This document shows, piece after piece, positions 3,697-54,269 of a stretch of 64,000 nt of DNA (position 1 is the first letter of the stretch; the number at the start of each line of letters is the position of its first letter). Source of the DNA: Sipunculus nudus (lineage: Eukaryota > Annelida > Sipuncula > Golfingiida > Sipunculidae). The notes under the pieces were generated by a model. It did no database searches, was not told the origin of the DNA, and saw nothing but the letters and a program-made list of their open reading frames with translations. The stretch lies in contig CM049309.1 of NCBI GenBank assembly GCA_026874595.1, positions 69,794,926-69,858,925 of the forward strand. The letters run 5' to 3'. The translations under genes were made by a program, and so were the position numbers.

Positions 3697-3702
3697 TTTA
3701 TT
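3697..3702 (-). terminator. Polyadenylation signal AATAAA for the prohormone gene
   Basis: AATAAA on the minus strand lies about 36 nt after the stop codon, which would give a very short 3'UTR. Further T-rich and AATAAA-like sites occur around 3400, so alternative longer 3' ends are possible. Confidence 0.6.
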
Positions 3703-3737: not shown

Positions 3738-6299
3738 TCACTGGCTGGTGACTGGGGTCTCCTTCGTGGCTGCCCCCTTCACCGGTGTTTCTTCCTTAAT
3801 TCCCCAGACTTTTTTATTTTTACTAACGTTAGGACTGTTTTTCTTGATCCATGCCATGTCACCACCCCATTTTTTGTCTTTAGCTACCTTTTCATCAGCA
3901 ACTACTTTTCCCTGCTTGGATTTTAACTCTTCTTCATGACTTTTTTTGTCCTTTTCTTGGTCCCTCTTAATCCAAGCCATATCTTGGCCCCATTTCTTAT
4001 CCGCGGAATCGCGCTTCATCCACTGCATATCTGAACCCCATGATTTTTTATCTTTATTGGTGTCCCGTTTAATCCAAGCCATGTCTTTGGAATTAAAGTG
4101 AGGCCCACTTGACCGTTTTTTTATCCAGGCCATATCTTGACCCCACTTCTTATCTGAACCACCACGTTTAATCCACGCCATGTCCTGGCCCCATTTTTTG
4201 TCAGGACCATTTGGCCCATTCCTTTTTATCCAGGCCATATCCTCCCCCCATTTTTTATTTGGTCCATTTCTCTTTATCCAGGCCATATCCTCTCCCCATT
4301 TCTTATCTGGGCCATTTCTCTTAATCCAGGCCATATCTTGTCCCCATTTCTTATCTGGGCCATTTCTCTTAATCCAGGCCATATCCTGGCCCCATTTCTT
4401 ATCTGGACCATTTCGTTTTATCCAGGCCATGTCTTGTCCCCATTTCTTTTCTGGACCATCTCTCTTTATCCAAGCCATATCCTCTCCCCATTTTTTATCT
4501 GGACCATTTCTTTTAATCCAGGCCATATCCTCCCCCCATTTTTTGTCTGGGCCATCAGGGCCATTCCTTTTAATCCAGGCCATATCTTGCCCCCATTTCT
4601 TATCAGGACCATCTGGGCCATTTCTCTTAATCCAAGCCATGTCCTGTCCCCATTTTTTCTCCGGACCATCCCTTTTTATCCAGGCCATATCTTGTCCCCA
4701 CTTTTTGTCTGGACCATTTCTCTTTATCCAGGCCATGTCCTCTCCCCATTTTTTATCTGGGCCATCTTGACCATTTCGCTTTATCCAAGCCATGTCTTGA
4801 CCCCATTTCTTGTTTTGTCCATTTCTTTTAATCCAGGCCATATCTTGTCCCCATTTCTTGTCTGGACTGTCTGGACCATTTCTCTTTATCCAAGCCATGT
4901 CTTGACCCCATTTTTTGTCTGGACCATCAGGGCCATTTCTTTTAATCCAGGCCATATCTTGGCCCCATTTCTTATCTGGGTCATTTCTCTTTATCCAGGC
5001 CATATCTTGGCCCCATTTCTTGTCTGGCCCATTTCTCTTTATCCATGCCATGTCCTGTCCCCATTTTTTATCAGGATTTCTCTTTATCCAAGACATGTCC
5101 TGGCCCCATCTCTTCATCCAGGACATGTCTTCACCCCATCTTTTCTCTCCTTCTCCCCTCTTGATCCATGCCATATCCTGTCCCCATTTCTTGTCATTGG
5201 CATTCCTTTTTATCCAAGACATGTCTGAGCCCCAGTTTTTCTTATCTTTATCTGCCTCTCTTTCAGTTACATGATGTTCACTGGCACTGGAGACATCTCG
5301 TCTTACTCTGACTGGTCCACTTCGCTTGAACCATTCACTATTAGCAGAGGTCCACATTCTCTTGTGGGCATAGGGTGGAACACGTTTGACCCAGTCAATA
5401 CTATCAGGATCAAAATTTCTCTTTTCCAGCCAGTCCAAGTCCGTATTTAGTGGTACATATGACCCAGTGCGCTTCAACCATCCGATAGAATCAGCATCAA
5501 AGGGTGCTCGTTTCAGCCAATCACTATTAGCCACAGACCACATACGTTTCTCAAGTGGTTTTTCATCATAAAAATCTTGGTCAGAGCTGCGTTTCAGCCA
5601 GGCAAGAGCATCCTGCCTGGGCCAGTCCCGTTTACGAAGCCACTGACTGTTGGCATATTTCCAGATCCTCTTTTCCAGATCGGGGTTGGACCTTTTTCGC
5701 TCATCCAGCCAAGCAGCATCAAAGGTATCCCAGCCCTTCTGTGCATCTCTTCGTACCCTTTTACTATGGTCTGCAAGCACTATGTCAAAGGAGCCAGAAA
5801 AACCACTGCCATCTGGTTTGACCATCACTGTTGGAGCTTCAAAAGAGGAAGGGACATCTCCAGCATCATTTGGCATCACCAGGATTTCAGAAGACAGCTC
5901 TTGGTGCTGGGGGCTGGCCACTTTCACAGCAACACTGAATGGAATGTGTTTAGTGGACTTACCTGGCAGCCATGTGGAAAATGAGTAACTGCCATCAGGT
6001 CCACTGACCACTGCACTGTGGCATCCAGCTTCTACCCCATCGTTTTGGAGAATATTTAAGTGCCACACATCTATCCTAGCATCTGACACAAGTGCACAGT
6101 TTTCATCCCTGACATGACCATGTACAGTCACTTTTGGGCCCTGTTTATCCAGCATGTCACATTCTTTCTCCAGTAAAGGTCCACTGATGGATTGTACACT
6201 GTGTCCAAACTGAGGTGTTGGACTGCATGTCTTTACCTCAGCGGCCGCAATGGACACCCACAGGAGAATTATCGTACCTACCAGGCAGGAGTGAGCCAT
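3738..6299 (-). CDS. Secreted multicopy peptide precursor (WGQDMAWI-type prohormone) with intradiol-dioxygenase-like N-domain
   Basis: One uninterrupted 853-codon exon; the ATG has G at -3 and +4 (strong Kozak). Residues 1-20 are a signal peptide ending in AAA. Residues ~45-145 resemble the intradiol ring-cleavage dioxygenase beta-sandwich (ARIDVWHLN, then GPDGSYSFSTWLPG, then KHIPFSVAVKV), with four cysteines (25, 47, 68, 93). The iron-binding Tyr after PG and the second His of HIH are absent, so catalysis is unlikely. Furin-like RVRR sites at 181-184 and 331-334 divide the protein. Between them lie eight peptides ending W-L/V/F before basic sites (e.g. IWKYANSQWL, MWSVANSDWL). Residues 355-820 hold 26 octapeptides: 16 WGQDMAWI, 5 WGEDMAWI and 5 variants, flanked by KK and KR, with spacers such as NGPD. 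No Gly precedes KR, so the peptides should not be amidated. The most likely role is a neuropeptide or hormone precursor processed in the secretory pathway; a structural or adhesive secreted protein is the alternative. I recognise no named family. Confidence 0.93.
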   Translation of the reverse strand: MAHSCLVGTIILLWVSIAAAEVKTCSPTPQFGHSVQSISGPLLEKECDMLDKQGPKVTVHGHVRDENCALVSDARIDVWHLNILQNDGVEAGCHSAVVSGPDGSYSFSTWLPGKSTKHIPFSVAVKVASPQHQELSSEILVMPNDAGDVPSSFEAPTVMVKPDGSGFSGSFDIVLADHSKRVRRDAQKGWDTFDAAWLDERKRSNPDLEKRIWKYANSQWLRKRDWPRQDALAWLKRSSDQDFYDEKPLEKRMWSVANSDWLKRAPFDADSIGWLKRTGSYVPLNTDLDWLEKRNFDPDSIDWVKRVPPYAHKRMWTSANSEWFKRSGPVRVRRDVSSASEHHVTEREADKDKKNWGSDMSWIKRNANDKKWGQDMAWIKRGEGEKRWGEDMSWMKRWGQDMSWIKRNPDKKWGQDMAWIKRNGPDKKWGQDMAWIKRNDPDKKWGQDMAWIKRNGPDGPDKKWGQDMAWIKRNGPDSPDKKWGQDMAWIKRNGQNKKWGQDMAWIKRNGQDGPDKKWGEDMAWIKRNGPDKKWGQDMAWIKRDGPEKKWGQDMAWIKRNGPDGPDKKWGQDMAWIKRNGPDGPDKKWGEDMAWIKRNGPDKKWGEDMAWIKRDGPEKKWGQDMAWIKRNGPDKKWGQDMAWIKRNGPDKKWGQDMAWIKRNGPDKKWGEDMAWIKRNGPNKKWGEDMAWIKRNGPNGPDKKWGQDMAWIKRGGSDKKWGQDMAWIKKRSSGPHFNSKDMAWIKRDTNKDKKSWGSDMQWMKRDSADKKWGQDMAWIKRDQEKDKKSHEEELKSKQGKVVADEKVAKDKKWGGDMAWIKKNSPNVSKNKKVWGIKEETPVKGAATKETPVTSQ
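3840..5239 (-). repeat. In-frame tandem array encoding WGxDMxW peptides
   Basis: This coding tandem repeat corresponds to residues 355-820. Units are mostly 48 or 57 nt, depending on whether the spacer carries one or two GPD blocks. Most central units differ by synonymous changes only, while units at the two ends carry replacements (WGSDMSWI first; WGSDMQWM and WGGDMAWI last). One unit near the 3' end has lost the leading WG and keeps only the DMAWIKR half. The antisense strand stays open in several frames simply because the unit repeats in multiples of three. Confidence 0.95.
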
Positions 6300-6379
6300 G
6301 GCCTGAAAGGAGGCACTATGGCCTTGTGTATTCGGTAAACTTCGTCTTGTAGACTGATTATATCACTTCTCCCTGGATT
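6300..6379 (-). other. 5'UTR segment of the prohormone exon, with splice acceptor
   Basis: Reading the minus strand, a pyrimidine-rich tract ending TTTTTGCAG stops at 6380. It is followed by 80 nt of untranslated sequence before the ATG. This is a textbook 3' splice site, so the coding exon is not the first exon and transcription starts further upstream, at higher coordinates. Confidence 0.75.
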
Positions 6380-7256
6380 CTGCAAAAAGAAAACACAGAT
6401 AATAGTACAAAAGGTAAACATCAAAGAATCCCTGCTATTTTTTCACAATACATCACACTACAACAAACGGTTATGATTATGCTTCATGGCATGAAGATGT
6501 AAAGTTTTCCCTACAAATGATACAGAAACTATGATACAGGGAGTATGATTTCTCTAACCTGAAAATTTTCATTTACATATGACTAAAAACTTCAGTCCCT
6601 GAAGATTATTAAAAATCTATCTACATAAAATATGTAACTATCATATTACTGCTACATGACTGCTACTGTCAAAAGAAATCTGAAGAAATACTGCTATCTT
6701 GAAAGAATGAAAGAAGTACTAAGCCTGCGAGTAAAAATATAAGGAAGCTGCCTTGAAAATGATATGTGTGTGCTCCACAGAGAATGAATGATTGTAAAAT
6801 CCTACACAAGGAAATACCAGGCTAAAGAGTCCCTAACAATAATTCTTTGCAGAAGACCATGGTGACAGAGTACTGGTAGCTGTCGTAATGAGGAGATTTC
6901 TCAGCTGGATGGGTTCTGGATCTAGATCTAAATGTCATGGCTTTCTGCTTCTAACATGTTATACCCTTTGAGATCATGCATTCCTCATGATAACATGATT
7001 ACAGATTTTTAATATATATTTTCCCCAACAATGAATGTGCCCACAGACACAATGTTTTGCTGGTAGTAATTCAATAATCCTGTACATTTTTTTTGGTCTT
7101 TTTCTGGTTTAACCATGTTTTCTTTTTCCTTGTACAACCAGACAGCTGTTGTCTTTATATGGTCAAGAACCCACTGATATTCTTTTTAAAACATATTTTG
7201 CAACTGACTGTCAATCCACTTCTTTGCTTAATACCTTGAAATTAATGTATGAGTAC

Positions 7257-39513: not shown

Positions 39514-40598
39514 TGACAAGAATCAATATGATAAACAGTATCTCTGATAAGAATCAATGTGTTTATCAATGGCTCTGACAAGAATCAATGTGATTATCAG
39601 TGGCTCTGACAAGAATCAATGTGATTGTCAGTGGCTCTGACAAGAATCAATGTGATTGTCAGTGGCTCTGACAAGAATCAATGTGATTATTAGTGGCTCT
39701 GACAAGAATCAATGTGATTATCAGTGGCTCTGACAAGATTCAATGTGATTGTCAGTGGCTCTGACAAGAATCAATGTGATTATCAGTGGCTCTGACAAGA
39801 ATCAATGTGATTGTCAGTGACTCTGACAAGAATCAATGTGATTATCAGTGGCTCTGACAAGAATCAATGTGATTATCAGTGGCTCTGACAAGAATCAATG
39901 TGATTGTCAGTGACTCTGACAAGAATCAATGTGATTATTAATGGCTCTGACAAGAAACAATGTGATTGTAAGTGGCTCTGAAAAGAATCAATGTGATTAT
40001 CGGTGGCTCTGACAAGAATCAATGTGATTATCAGTGGCTCTGACAAGAATCAATGTGATTGTCAGTGGCTCTGACAAGAATCAATGTGATTGTCAGTGGC
40101 TCTGAAAAGAATCAATGTGATTGTCAGTGGCTCTGACAAGAATCAATGTGATTGTCAGTGGCTCTGACAAGAATCAGTGATTATCAGTGGCTCTGACAAG
40201 AATCAATGTGATTGTCAGTGGCTCTGACAAGAATCAATGTGATTATCGGTGGCTCTGACAAGAATCAATGTGATTGTCAGTGGCTCTGACAAGAATCAAT
40301 GTGATTGTCAGTGGTTCTGACAAGAATCAATGTGATTATCGGTGGCTCTGACAAGAATCAATGCGATTATCAGTGGCTCTGACAAGAATCAATGTGATTA
40401 TCAGTGGCTCTGACAAGAATCAATGTGATTGTCAGTGGCTCTGACAAGAATCAATGTGATTGTCAGTGACTCTGACAAGAATCAATGTGATTGTCAGTGA
40501 CTCTGACAAGAATCAATGTGATTGTCAGTGACTCTGACAAGAATCAATGAAATAATTAATGGCTCTGACAAGAAACTGTGATTATTAATGGCTCTGAG
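39514..40598. repeat. 31-bp minisatellite, about 35 copies
   Basis: Unit begins TCTGACAAGAATCAATGTGA and continues TTRTCAGTGGC. Central copies differ mainly at one A/G position (TTATC or TTGTC). End copies are degraded. One unit near 40170 has a 3-bp deletion. Each unit contains the small dyad AATCA-ATG-TGATT. Confidence 0.97.
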
Positions 40599-41329
40599 AA
40601 GTATTATTACAAAAAATAAATACAATCTTCATAAACTAAAAGAACAAAACAATTGTTTTAGATCATTCTTACTTAATCTGTATGAAGCAGAAAATATTGC
40701 AGCCAGTATGTATTGTGTGAGTCCATCAAGATATTCTGAAGCCTATTTAACATTAATGAACCTTTTGTTGACTTCACCAAGACACAGCTTTCTACCATAA
40801 TCACAGAAACAATGCTGTCAGTGCCAGGTGAGGTAATGTATATAATTTTGACTCTTAACATATTTTTTTATATATTATCAATCACTTTTGGTCAACAATT
40901 GATACTGACACTTCTCCTGATAATCAGCTGTAACTTTTTCAATAACCATTTGCTAAACCCAGGCAGATACTTGATACTAACATATCTCACTACAGCTAGC
41001 CTTATTATTTAATTTAAGAGAATTATGACAGTAGTCATTATTTACAGATTCATCATATCTATAGTTTGTATTTTTTTTCTGATTTCTATATTTTTCAGAT
41101 GCTCAAGTAATATTAATTTATACCATAAACAACAAAAATAAATAATTAAACATAAGTAAAGTACATTCTAATAATTACATGGTCTTCCTAAAATACATTT
41201 TTATCTCTCAGGCAATGTGGGCATATACCACAATTCATTCTCAAGAATTATACCATAATTCACACATACATGGCAAAGACATTCGTACAACCTATTTCCC
41301 CGTTTCAGTATACACTGTAGTACATATTA

Positions 41330-51130: not shown

Positions 51131-53756
51131 TCATCAGAAGTGTAAAGAACATAACCAGGACTTTTTACCAGCCTAAGATTTTGTCCCCTGCATATATTAA
51201 CGGTACCTTGGACCAGAACCTTATACCTCAGAAGAGTTACATTCATCTCAGACATATTAAGCTGTATCAATTATCAAATCATCTAAGACATTAACCACCA
51301 TACCTGACCACAGACAGCTATACAATAGATGACTTTATACAATATGCTGGCTTCAGCTTGCTATGTAATAAAATATTGAGCAAATGGCAAAGATAATTAG
51401 GTTAAATAAAGATTCATGATAATCCTGTGTTTAATTTGTTAAAAGTTTTTCAAAGTTGTGTTTCATTTCCGAACCACTTTAATAAAATAATGGAAACATC
51501 TTTGGTACCACTGAAAAATTATAATTACACTGAAAAAAAACTTGCAATTTTGTACTGTCAAAGTATAGGGGGATAGCAGAAACTCTGACTCATCCAACAT
51601 TTAATTTTGTTATGATTTCATATACTTTGCAAGGTCAAAGGGCTCATAATCTAAGCTCAGGTGGGATTCTCAACCCAGCAAAGTTTTATATTATATATCA
51701 TACATATGATAACATAATCTCAAATTTACATTGTTAATGTTTATGCACCATTATGGCATCAACCACATTGGTTAAATAACATAAAACTCACTTTCTAAAT
51801 ATGAAAATATCAATAGGAAACTGAAATATTCAACCAAATATCAATCTCCTACTAGAATCAGTTTAATCACCATAATACCAAAATCTCATCAAGTTTTTTT
51901 TTTTTTACAATTCCTTTTTTTTTCGAGAGTCTTCACCTTAAACTTCATGGGACATACTGGATATTATTATTACTGGGTGTTTCTTTGTTATAAGGAGAGC
52001 CTTTTCCTGGATCTGGAAGTATATGAATGAACAAGAAAACGTACTGTACACTCCCACTTACAAAAATAAATCCTGACTTTTATGAATATTTACATTGCCA
52101 AAAACTGGATATTATTTATCACTTTGTAAGCTCTTGGTCACCTGCTCTGGGAGGCATCTGACAAAAGTGAAAAGATATACCACATAGGATTTTAACAGTT
52201 CTGGCTAGCAGCAGCAAGGTGAGTCGAAACATGTTACATTTAATTTTTTTTTTAATAATGTGCCACTGAATTTAGGTAATGCTTGATATTAATTTACCAC
52301 ATTTTCTGAATGCTCATCACTGTGAAACAAGAAAGCAATTTAAAGGGATGATCTTCCAATAAACACATTTTTTTCTTTATTTTTTTTATAATTGTCACAA
52401 ACATACTATTACAACATTTAAAACCAGGAGTTTCCTGCTTGACTGATTCATCAAACAATATAAGTATTCTTCTACACTTTTAAGAATGCTGAGATATAAT
52501 AATTAACAGCACAGATAGAGCACCTTTTAACTCTGATAGATCAATGAAGTTAAACTCAATTGTGTCAAACACATCTGTGCCATTTTCTGCTAAAATTTTA
52601 AGCCAATCATTTCAGTATAATTATTACCAAATAATTGAGGTTGACCTCAGATATGTCCAAGTACTTTTTCTGAGTCTCTTTTACTTCATCCCAATAAGTT
52701 TTACTGTAATTCACAGATATAACACTCGGAATTGATAGATTATGGAGTCAACATAAAAACTTGAATTATCTTCAGACTATATAGTCTGACATATACAACC
52801 TGAAATACAGAAAGAAACTAGTAAGTAAACTACATACAATCAGCCAACATAAGGGTAGACACTATACAATTCAGAGCTTGACATTAATCCCTGCTCACAC
52901 AAGGCTGTTATAATTCAGGGCTTGACATTAATTTGACATTAACAGATCAATCTGAGTTTGAATTTGTCCTCTGGGTAACAATATTACAGAACTGGAAAAA
53001 TTTATGAGCATGAAATTGTCATGAATTTCATGATGATACCTTATTTAATAAAGAAAAACAAATACTCTCAATGTCTCATTAATTGCACACTAGACTTTAG
53101 TATTTCTCCCTAATATATGCACACACAAAGCAAGAATACAAGGTTCAATGCATGGTAAATTTTTTTGTTTTAAATCTATCTATGTAGGGCAGTGACCAAC
53201 ATGTCTTTGTAACTGAAAAAAAAATTATGTAGAAAACAAAAACCCAAACATCTGCAAACATACTTGTGAATTTGCACCTACATATAGCGATAATGATAAA
53301 AGAATGCTTTTAACACAAAAGAGATGATTTGTTGTCAAGTGTGCAAACACAAAGACATGAAGACCCTTTGAACATCAAAGTGAGCCGTCTATGATGATAA
53401 TGACAAGTTGATCATTAGTTCATCTCCCCGAGTAGTTCATAGAATGTAAATGAATAAATATCATAATAAATTTTAGGGACTGCTTTTTTTTTCTGTGAAA
53501 GCTAAGGATTTTTTCGCCTGTACTAGTCCTATGGGGAAAGTGCTAATATACATCATATGAAAAATCTACTGTTTTGTACAAGTAGGCAATTTTGGACTCA
53601 GCAATACAGTAACTGTTACCAAACCTAAACTTGCATAACTGTTACCAAGGCCAAACATTACAACATTATATTTCAATAGCCAAAATTTCACTCCTCACAC
53701 AGCAGTTACACACTACAGTTAATCGAGATCCCCTTTAAGTACTGTACGTACGGGCT

Positions 53757-54269
53757 AATATGTTAAAACAAAAATTCAAACTTTGCTCAGAAACAGTTAA
53801 GATATTATTATTTAAAATGTTTTGTTACTCTTTATATTGTGCCAGTCTCTGGTGTCAATACAGAAAGTCCAGCATAGAAAAGGTGAAAGTGGCGTACAAT
53901 AATGCTTTTAGGATATTTCTTGGCTTTCCAAAACACTGCAGCATCAGCAAAGAATTTATCAGTCGTAACATTACCACCTTTGATGCACTAATGCGCAAAG
54001 AGTTTTATTCATTAAAAATGAGAATAACTGAATCTGACAACCTGTATGTCAGAACTTTGTATGAATCTGATCTATATCTAAAGTCAGACTTGTTTAATTT
54101 TCATAACCAGAAGATGTTTGTTATCAGATTATAAGTAATAATGCAGTTGGCCTAAATCCTATGTTATTTGCTTTCTACTGTTTTTTTCTTTCTATTCTTA
54201 TTTACTTTCATTGTTTCTGTATATGGACCATGAGTCTGTAATAAAACATTATTATTATTATTATTATTT
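53757..54269 (+). mobile_element. 5'-truncated LINE: C-terminal end of a reverse-transcriptase ORF plus 3' tail
   Basis: The reading frame 53760-54134 resembles the conserved C-terminal end of non-LTR retrotransposon ORFs (SLYCASLWCQYRKS, then VAYNNAFRIFLGFP). The catalytic RT core is missing, so this is a dead 5'-truncated insertion. A short 3'UTR follows, ending in an (ATT)n tract at 54248-54269, a tail style of CR1/L2-like LINEs. Confidence 0.8.

Follow-up and report, generated by a model that had tools for sequence, protein, structure and literature searches.

A putative WI-type neuropeptide precursor of Sipunculus nudus with an intradiol-dioxygenase-like front domain

Introduction

What does an apparent enzyme relic do at the front of a protein that otherwise looks like a neuropeptide precursor? 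The question is raised by a gene of the annelid Sipunculus nudus, which encodes an 853-residue protein within a 64,000-nucleotide stretch of genomic DNA (NCBI GenBank assembly GCA_026874595.1, contig CM049309.1, positions 69,794,926 to 69,858,925), hereafter the window. The folding of long, repetitive neuropeptide precursors, and their sorting into granules, is a standing problem, and a recognisable enzyme-derived domain, with an intact relative in the same genome, would offer a defined part to delete or swap. A first-pass annotation of the sequence had described a secreted precursor of tryptophan peptides with a recruited enzyme fold as its front domain, and knew of no named neuropeptide family with this architecture. 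Here we find that the peptides, judging by sequence relationships, belong to or adjoin the annelid WI family, and that the front domain is related in sequence to intradiol dioxygenases. We lean slightly towards reading the protein as a WI-type neuropeptide precursor in which a ligand-poor, intradiol-related N-terminal domain (N-domain), predicted to be cut off by furin, helps to fold or sort the peptide-bearing remainder.

Results

The secreted layout proposed by the first-pass annotation was borne out: a signal-peptide-like start (residues 1-20; best 12-residue hydropathy 2.54, a hydropathy measure rather than the output of a dedicated signal-peptide predictor) is followed by the N-domain and then by tryptophan peptides between basic sites, and every sequence motif it had quoted is found in the open reading frame. 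The peptides form two modules, module 2 with varied peptides and module 3, a tandem array whose units are separated by KK/KR sites and NGPD-type spacers (Table 1).

Past residue 184, 35 fragments between basic runs end in tryptophan plus a hydrophobic residue (within the last four letters), of which the array holds 27 and residues 185-324 hold eight varied ones; a looser pattern counts 34 peptides, one spanning a basic site, so that the 34 first annotated were right to within one. The 26 WGxDMxW[IM] units comprise 16 copies of WGQDMAWI, five of WGEDMAWI and five other single forms. Compared with their own DNA consensus, these units carry 81 synonymous and 24 non-synonymous changes, against an expectation of 14% synonymous, and pN/pS is 0.069 in the peptide cores versus 0.438 across those spacers that were tested, 13 in number and four residues long. 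The binomial p value overstates the case, the array units being copies of each other, and is only indicative; the contrast between cores and spacers is the informative part. The array pattern is beyond chance, and selection preserves the peptide cores and acts more weakly on the spacers. Ends before K/R in the precursor are WI in 25 cases and WL in four, and there are no WG[KR][KR] sites, the amidation feature of MIP / allatostatin-B precursors. Tryptophan spacing over 34 ends is x5 in 26, x6-7 in four and without a partner tryptophan in four, while in the seven relatives described below it is x6-7 in 99 of 105 ends. The W-x5-W of the array is one or two residues shorter than this, as though every array unit had shed the 'SG' of WxxSGMSWI.

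A search with residues 1-400 returned P0002 (E 9.4e-17), and a profile of the window precursor and P0002 matched at least seven proteins (P0002, P0003, P0004, P0005, P0006, P0007 and P0008), these being the matches listed among 7989 scored candidates. P0004 is named 'WI [Urechis unicinctus]' (profile E 7.8e-62), P0005 comes from Paralvinella palmiformis and P0006 from Ridgeia piscesae, so all three species-named relatives are annelids; P0008 is the weakest match (E 9.7e-6). Each of the seven has four or more W-I ends before K/R, and module 2 of the window precursor outscores every one of 250 W-, K- and R-preserving shuffles when compared with P0004, and likewise with P0005. Passages of Conzelmann 2013 (PMC3890597) describe non-amidated W[I/L] peptides in Platynereis with the motif x-W-x6-7-W-[G/I/L] and a WI precursor orthologue in Capitella, and treat WI peptides as annelid derivatives of MIP. 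The window precursor has non-amidated W[I/L] ends before basic sites and is related in sequence to a WI-named precursor; because its relatives with W-I peptides include annelids and one protein named 'WI', we place its peptides in or beside this family. The view that no named neuropeptide family fits therefore falls, since the peptides match named, MIP-related annelid WI precursors. P0004 presumably originates from a Urechis study of 54 precursors (PMC7737342), whose abstract, outline and sections 5 and 6 do not mention WI. Viral contigs and prokaryote genome contigs, scanned with two peptide patterns each, gave no relative.

With the N-terminal 190 residues as query, the search returned P0001, an intradiol-domain protein (E 3.3e-3). 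The N-domain is carried by four of the six precursors compared (window, P0002, P0003 and P0006); it was not detected in the WI-named P0004, and P0007, a fragment without a start, shows no Pfam match to it. A profile built from the four N-domains, with enzymes excluded, matches solved intradiol dioxygenases at E 3.8e-9, P0003 and P0006 exceed the Pfam cut-off for PF00775, and the predicted fold of the window N-domain resembles that of intradiol dioxygenases. Profile and predicted fold thus both point to a relation of the precursor N-domains to intradiol dioxygenases, in agreement with the intradiol-type fold, and its recruitment into a precursor, that had been proposed at the outset. A transthyretin-like or carboxypeptidase-regulatory origin is weaker by the profile over the four N-domains and by structure, and was set aside on those grounds; it is marginally ahead of intradiol for P0002 alone. 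Matches to Melittin, CD4-tail and Transp_inhibit in the repeats lie below cut-off and were taken as chance.

Intradiol dioxygenases bind iron through two tyrosines and two histidines. By family alignment, none of these four ligands remains in the window precursor, P0002 or P0003, and one remains in P0006. The ligand loss first annotated thus stands, with a correction to the histidines: only the second had been thought replaced, together with the tyrosine after PG, whereas the family alignment replaces both, and the first is kept in a pairwise alignment with the intact relative P0009, leaving one histidine at most. The UniRef entry of P0006 bears the name 'intradiol ring-cleavage dioxygenase', yet P0006 is a WI-type peptide precursor.

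P0009 emerged from a search of the whole genome, which matched the gene itself and a single site on a different contig (E 6.8e-4, 35% identity); this second match falls in an exon encoding an intradiol domain and then a stop (PF00775 53.3 bits). All four of the ligand residues expected are present in P0009, within DSNY, PGLY and KHIH; we take them to be the iron ligands, PDB entry titles naming Y408 and Y447 variants. Upstream, a simple scan over about 5.6 kb revealed no signal-peptide exon. An animal genome here encodes an intradiol domain complete in its ligand residues, which may be old or may have come from microbes.

Each of the four N-domains has four cysteines behind a signal-like start, and the third and fourth cysteines of P0009 are in register in all four (Cys 68 and 93 of the window precursor); P0001 lacks the second and fourth of the P0009 cysteines. 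In a six-sequence tree the four N-domains stand apart from P0009 and P0001, with a bootstrap of 79 and a FastTree support of 0.89, and a single P0009-like enzyme is suggested as the ancestor of all four.

The furin-type pattern RX[KR]R accounts for only two of the 68 basic runs of the window precursor, and both stand at the module joints. The same placement recurs in P0002 (2/29) and P0003 (2/26), and P0004 has one such run (1/45), at the first joint; runs were counted past residue 20 in the six precursors compared. Furin-type sites are therefore found at both joints in three of six precursors and behind the N-terminal region in four of six (window, P0002, P0003 and P0004). According to passages of PMC4141687, furin-like Golgi enzymes cleave proSAAS at RxRR sites and the resulting parts enter different vesicles; egg-laying hormone and proTRH are named there as further precursors with separately sorted parts. 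Given the joint-placed sites and the proSAAS precedent, the window precursor would probably be split early into domain, varied peptides and array.

Table 1 Features of the precursor gene in the window, and the exon of its intact relative.
Feature	Position	Strand	Basis or context
Coding sequence of WI-type precursor, 853 aa, uninterrupted	3738..6299	minus	Open reading frame and protein relatives
Signal-peptide-like start, residues 1-20	6240..6299	minus	Hydropathy only
Degenerate intradiol-dioxygenase-like domain, residues 21-179, Cys 25, 47, 68, 93	5763..6239	minus	Profiles, predicted fold
Furin-type site RVRR, residues 181-184, joining domain to first peptides	5748..5759	minus	Basic-run scan
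Module 2: eight varied peptides ending W-L/V/F, residues 185-324	5328..5747	minus	Fragments between basic runs
Furin-type site RVRR, residues 331-334, joining module 2 to array	5298..5309	minus	Basic-run scan
Module 3: 26 WGxDMxW[IM] peptides and one degenerate unit, residues 355-818	3846..5237	minus	Tandem array
Candidate 3' splice site of 5'-untranslated-region intron (tttctttttgcag)	6380..6381	minus	By eye, sequence only
Candidate poly(A) signal AATAAA, about 36 bases past stop	3697..3702	minus	Sequence
P0009 exon	L002:1354-1842 (matched part G000 C9:63276939-63277196)	minus	Candidate splice acceptor in front

The start codon sits in the context GGCCATGG, and a second candidate acceptor AG upstream of it ends at 6303. 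Elsewhere in the window, 35 copies of a 31-bp unit form a minisatellite at 39514-40601 (92% matches), and a 131-residue open frame at 53739-54134 has the look of a reverse-transcriptase remnant, with no Pfam match at E 0.1. Scans of the window for tRNA and Rfam families gave no matches.

Discussion

From these results we infer that the front part of the precursor is a pseudoenzyme domain, cut off early, which aids the folding or sorting of the rest. A folding or sorting aid is proposed rather than a ligand because the domain diverges to 21-23% identity (window versus P0002, P0003 and P0006) while the peptides keep their pattern. In such a scheme, the four-cysteine domain would fold in the endoplasmic reticulum in front of a charged, repetitive chain of about 670 residues. 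Golgi furin-like enzymes would then cleave at the two RX[KR]R sites, the only ones in the precursor, to give three pieces, the domain travelling as one by itself. Granule convertases and carboxypeptidases would then release peptides such as WGQDMAWI and WGEDMAWI, predicted to bear a free C-terminal acid because no glycine precedes the basic sites, and these may act on a receptor that is perhaps a relative of the MIP receptor.

Several results weigh against this reading. On PF00775, the family against which the first-pass annotation had proposed to check it, the window precursor alone scores 17.2, below the cut-off of 27.3. Confidence in the N-domain model is middling (mean pLDDT 67), the alignment behind it took in one enzyme, P0001, and the better of its two TM-scores against the SACTE_2871 structures is 0.60-0.65. 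Between the domain and the N-termini of P0004, P0005 and P0008 hhalign detects no relation (E 0.08 to the N-domains and 0.2 to the enzymes), and a full-length model of P0005 reaches a mean pLDDT of 31; these three proteins may have lost the domain, replaced it or worn it past recognition, and it therefore cannot be called family-wide. Module 2 does not stand above shuffles against P0006 and P0003 (10 and 22 of 250 shuffles reach its score), the array peptides depart from the x6-7 of the annelid WI motif with their W-x5-W, and P0005 (0/47) and P0006 (0/34) lack RX[KR]R runs, so early splitting is not universal. The second cysteine of P0009 is in register in three of four N-domains, the window being the exception, and its first cysteine in none. 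Tree support for a single N-domain group is moderate, and the window domain is closer to P0001 (30% identity) than to the other three N-domains or to P0009 (22%); common descent of the N-domains is accordingly suggested and not proven.

An unlikely though serious alternative is that the domain is a passenger, a chance fusion that supplied a signal peptide and persists as a tolerated leftover with no present role. Its fast divergence, the loss of the iron ligands and its apparent absence from P0004, P0005 and P0008 would all fit such a leftover, whereas the register of Cys 68 and 93 in four of four N-domains, the retention of four cysteines behind a signal-like start in each, and the furin-type site directly behind the domain in the window precursor, P0002 and P0003 argue against it.

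We consider it improbable, more so than a passenger, that the domain, once freed, acts as a secreted protein signal in its own right or remains attached to the peptides as their carrier, much as neurophysin accompanies vasopressin-type hormones. In favour of this are the furin-type site behind the N-terminal region in four of six precursors and the strand core predicted for the domain on its own (pLDDT >=70 in 93 of 190 residues); a ligand, or a carrier of conserved peptides, would however be expected to be conserved, which the domain is not, and proSAAS parts split at such sites reach different vesicles (passages of PMC4141687). Very improbable, finally, is a secreted repetitive structural or mucus protein: the long low-complexity array with a net charge of +44 in residues 353-853 would suit one, against which stand the sequence relation to a WI-named precursor, the basic sites flanking the units, the strong selection on peptide cores with weaker selection on spacers, and the published WI family of Platynereis.

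If the N-domain is indeed a folding or sorting aid, its origin can be sketched tentatively, in a scenario that is possible and that we would not call probable: at or near the origin of annelid WI precursors, a secreted catechol-ring-cleaving enzyme would have lost its iron site and become a prohormone folding or sorting domain, split off by furin before packing.

The peptide family has been described before; what appears to be new is the account of an enzyme-derived domain and of a layout in three parts bounded by furin-type sites. Among the matches listed, in a search that left supplements and most subscription papers outside, no literature joined 'intradiol' with 'neuropeptide precursor', or both in an annelid, and short peptide strings used as queries gave no relevant paper among the matches listed. 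'Intradiol' and 'neuropeptide' co-occur in two mite papers (PMC12105342 and PMC4046741), as term matches only. WI phrases sought in PMC5747525 gave no passage, and 'dioxygenase' occurs 0 times in the main text of PMC3890597, which defers its sequences to additional files outside this check. In practice, the N-domain may serve as an N-terminal marker for some precursors of the WI-type family, and P0006 carries a warning that a database entry named as an intradiol ring-cleavage dioxygenase can be a neuropeptide precursor.

The window precursor thus combines features of several known systems. With the intradiol dioxygenases (SACTE_2871, 4ILT/4ILV; spider-mite 5VG2/6BDJ) its N-domain shares a sequence profile and a predicted fold; unlike them, it retains none of the four iron ligands by family alignment and is joined to a peptide precursor. 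The splitting of proSAAS at RxRR furin sites, as described in the passages drawn on above, resembles the one predicted for the window precursor, and the Aplysia egg-laying hormone precursor shares with proSAAS the sorting of its parts to different vesicles. To our knowledge, neither of these precursors has an enzyme-derived domain. MIPs end in W-amide, and unlike them the window precursor offers no amidation site. Like MIP / allatostatin-B precursors as portrayed in passages of PMC3890597, it holds many peptides with two spaced tryptophans, and with the annelid WI precursors of Platynereis and Capitella it shares non-amidated W[I/L] peptides bearing two tryptophans.
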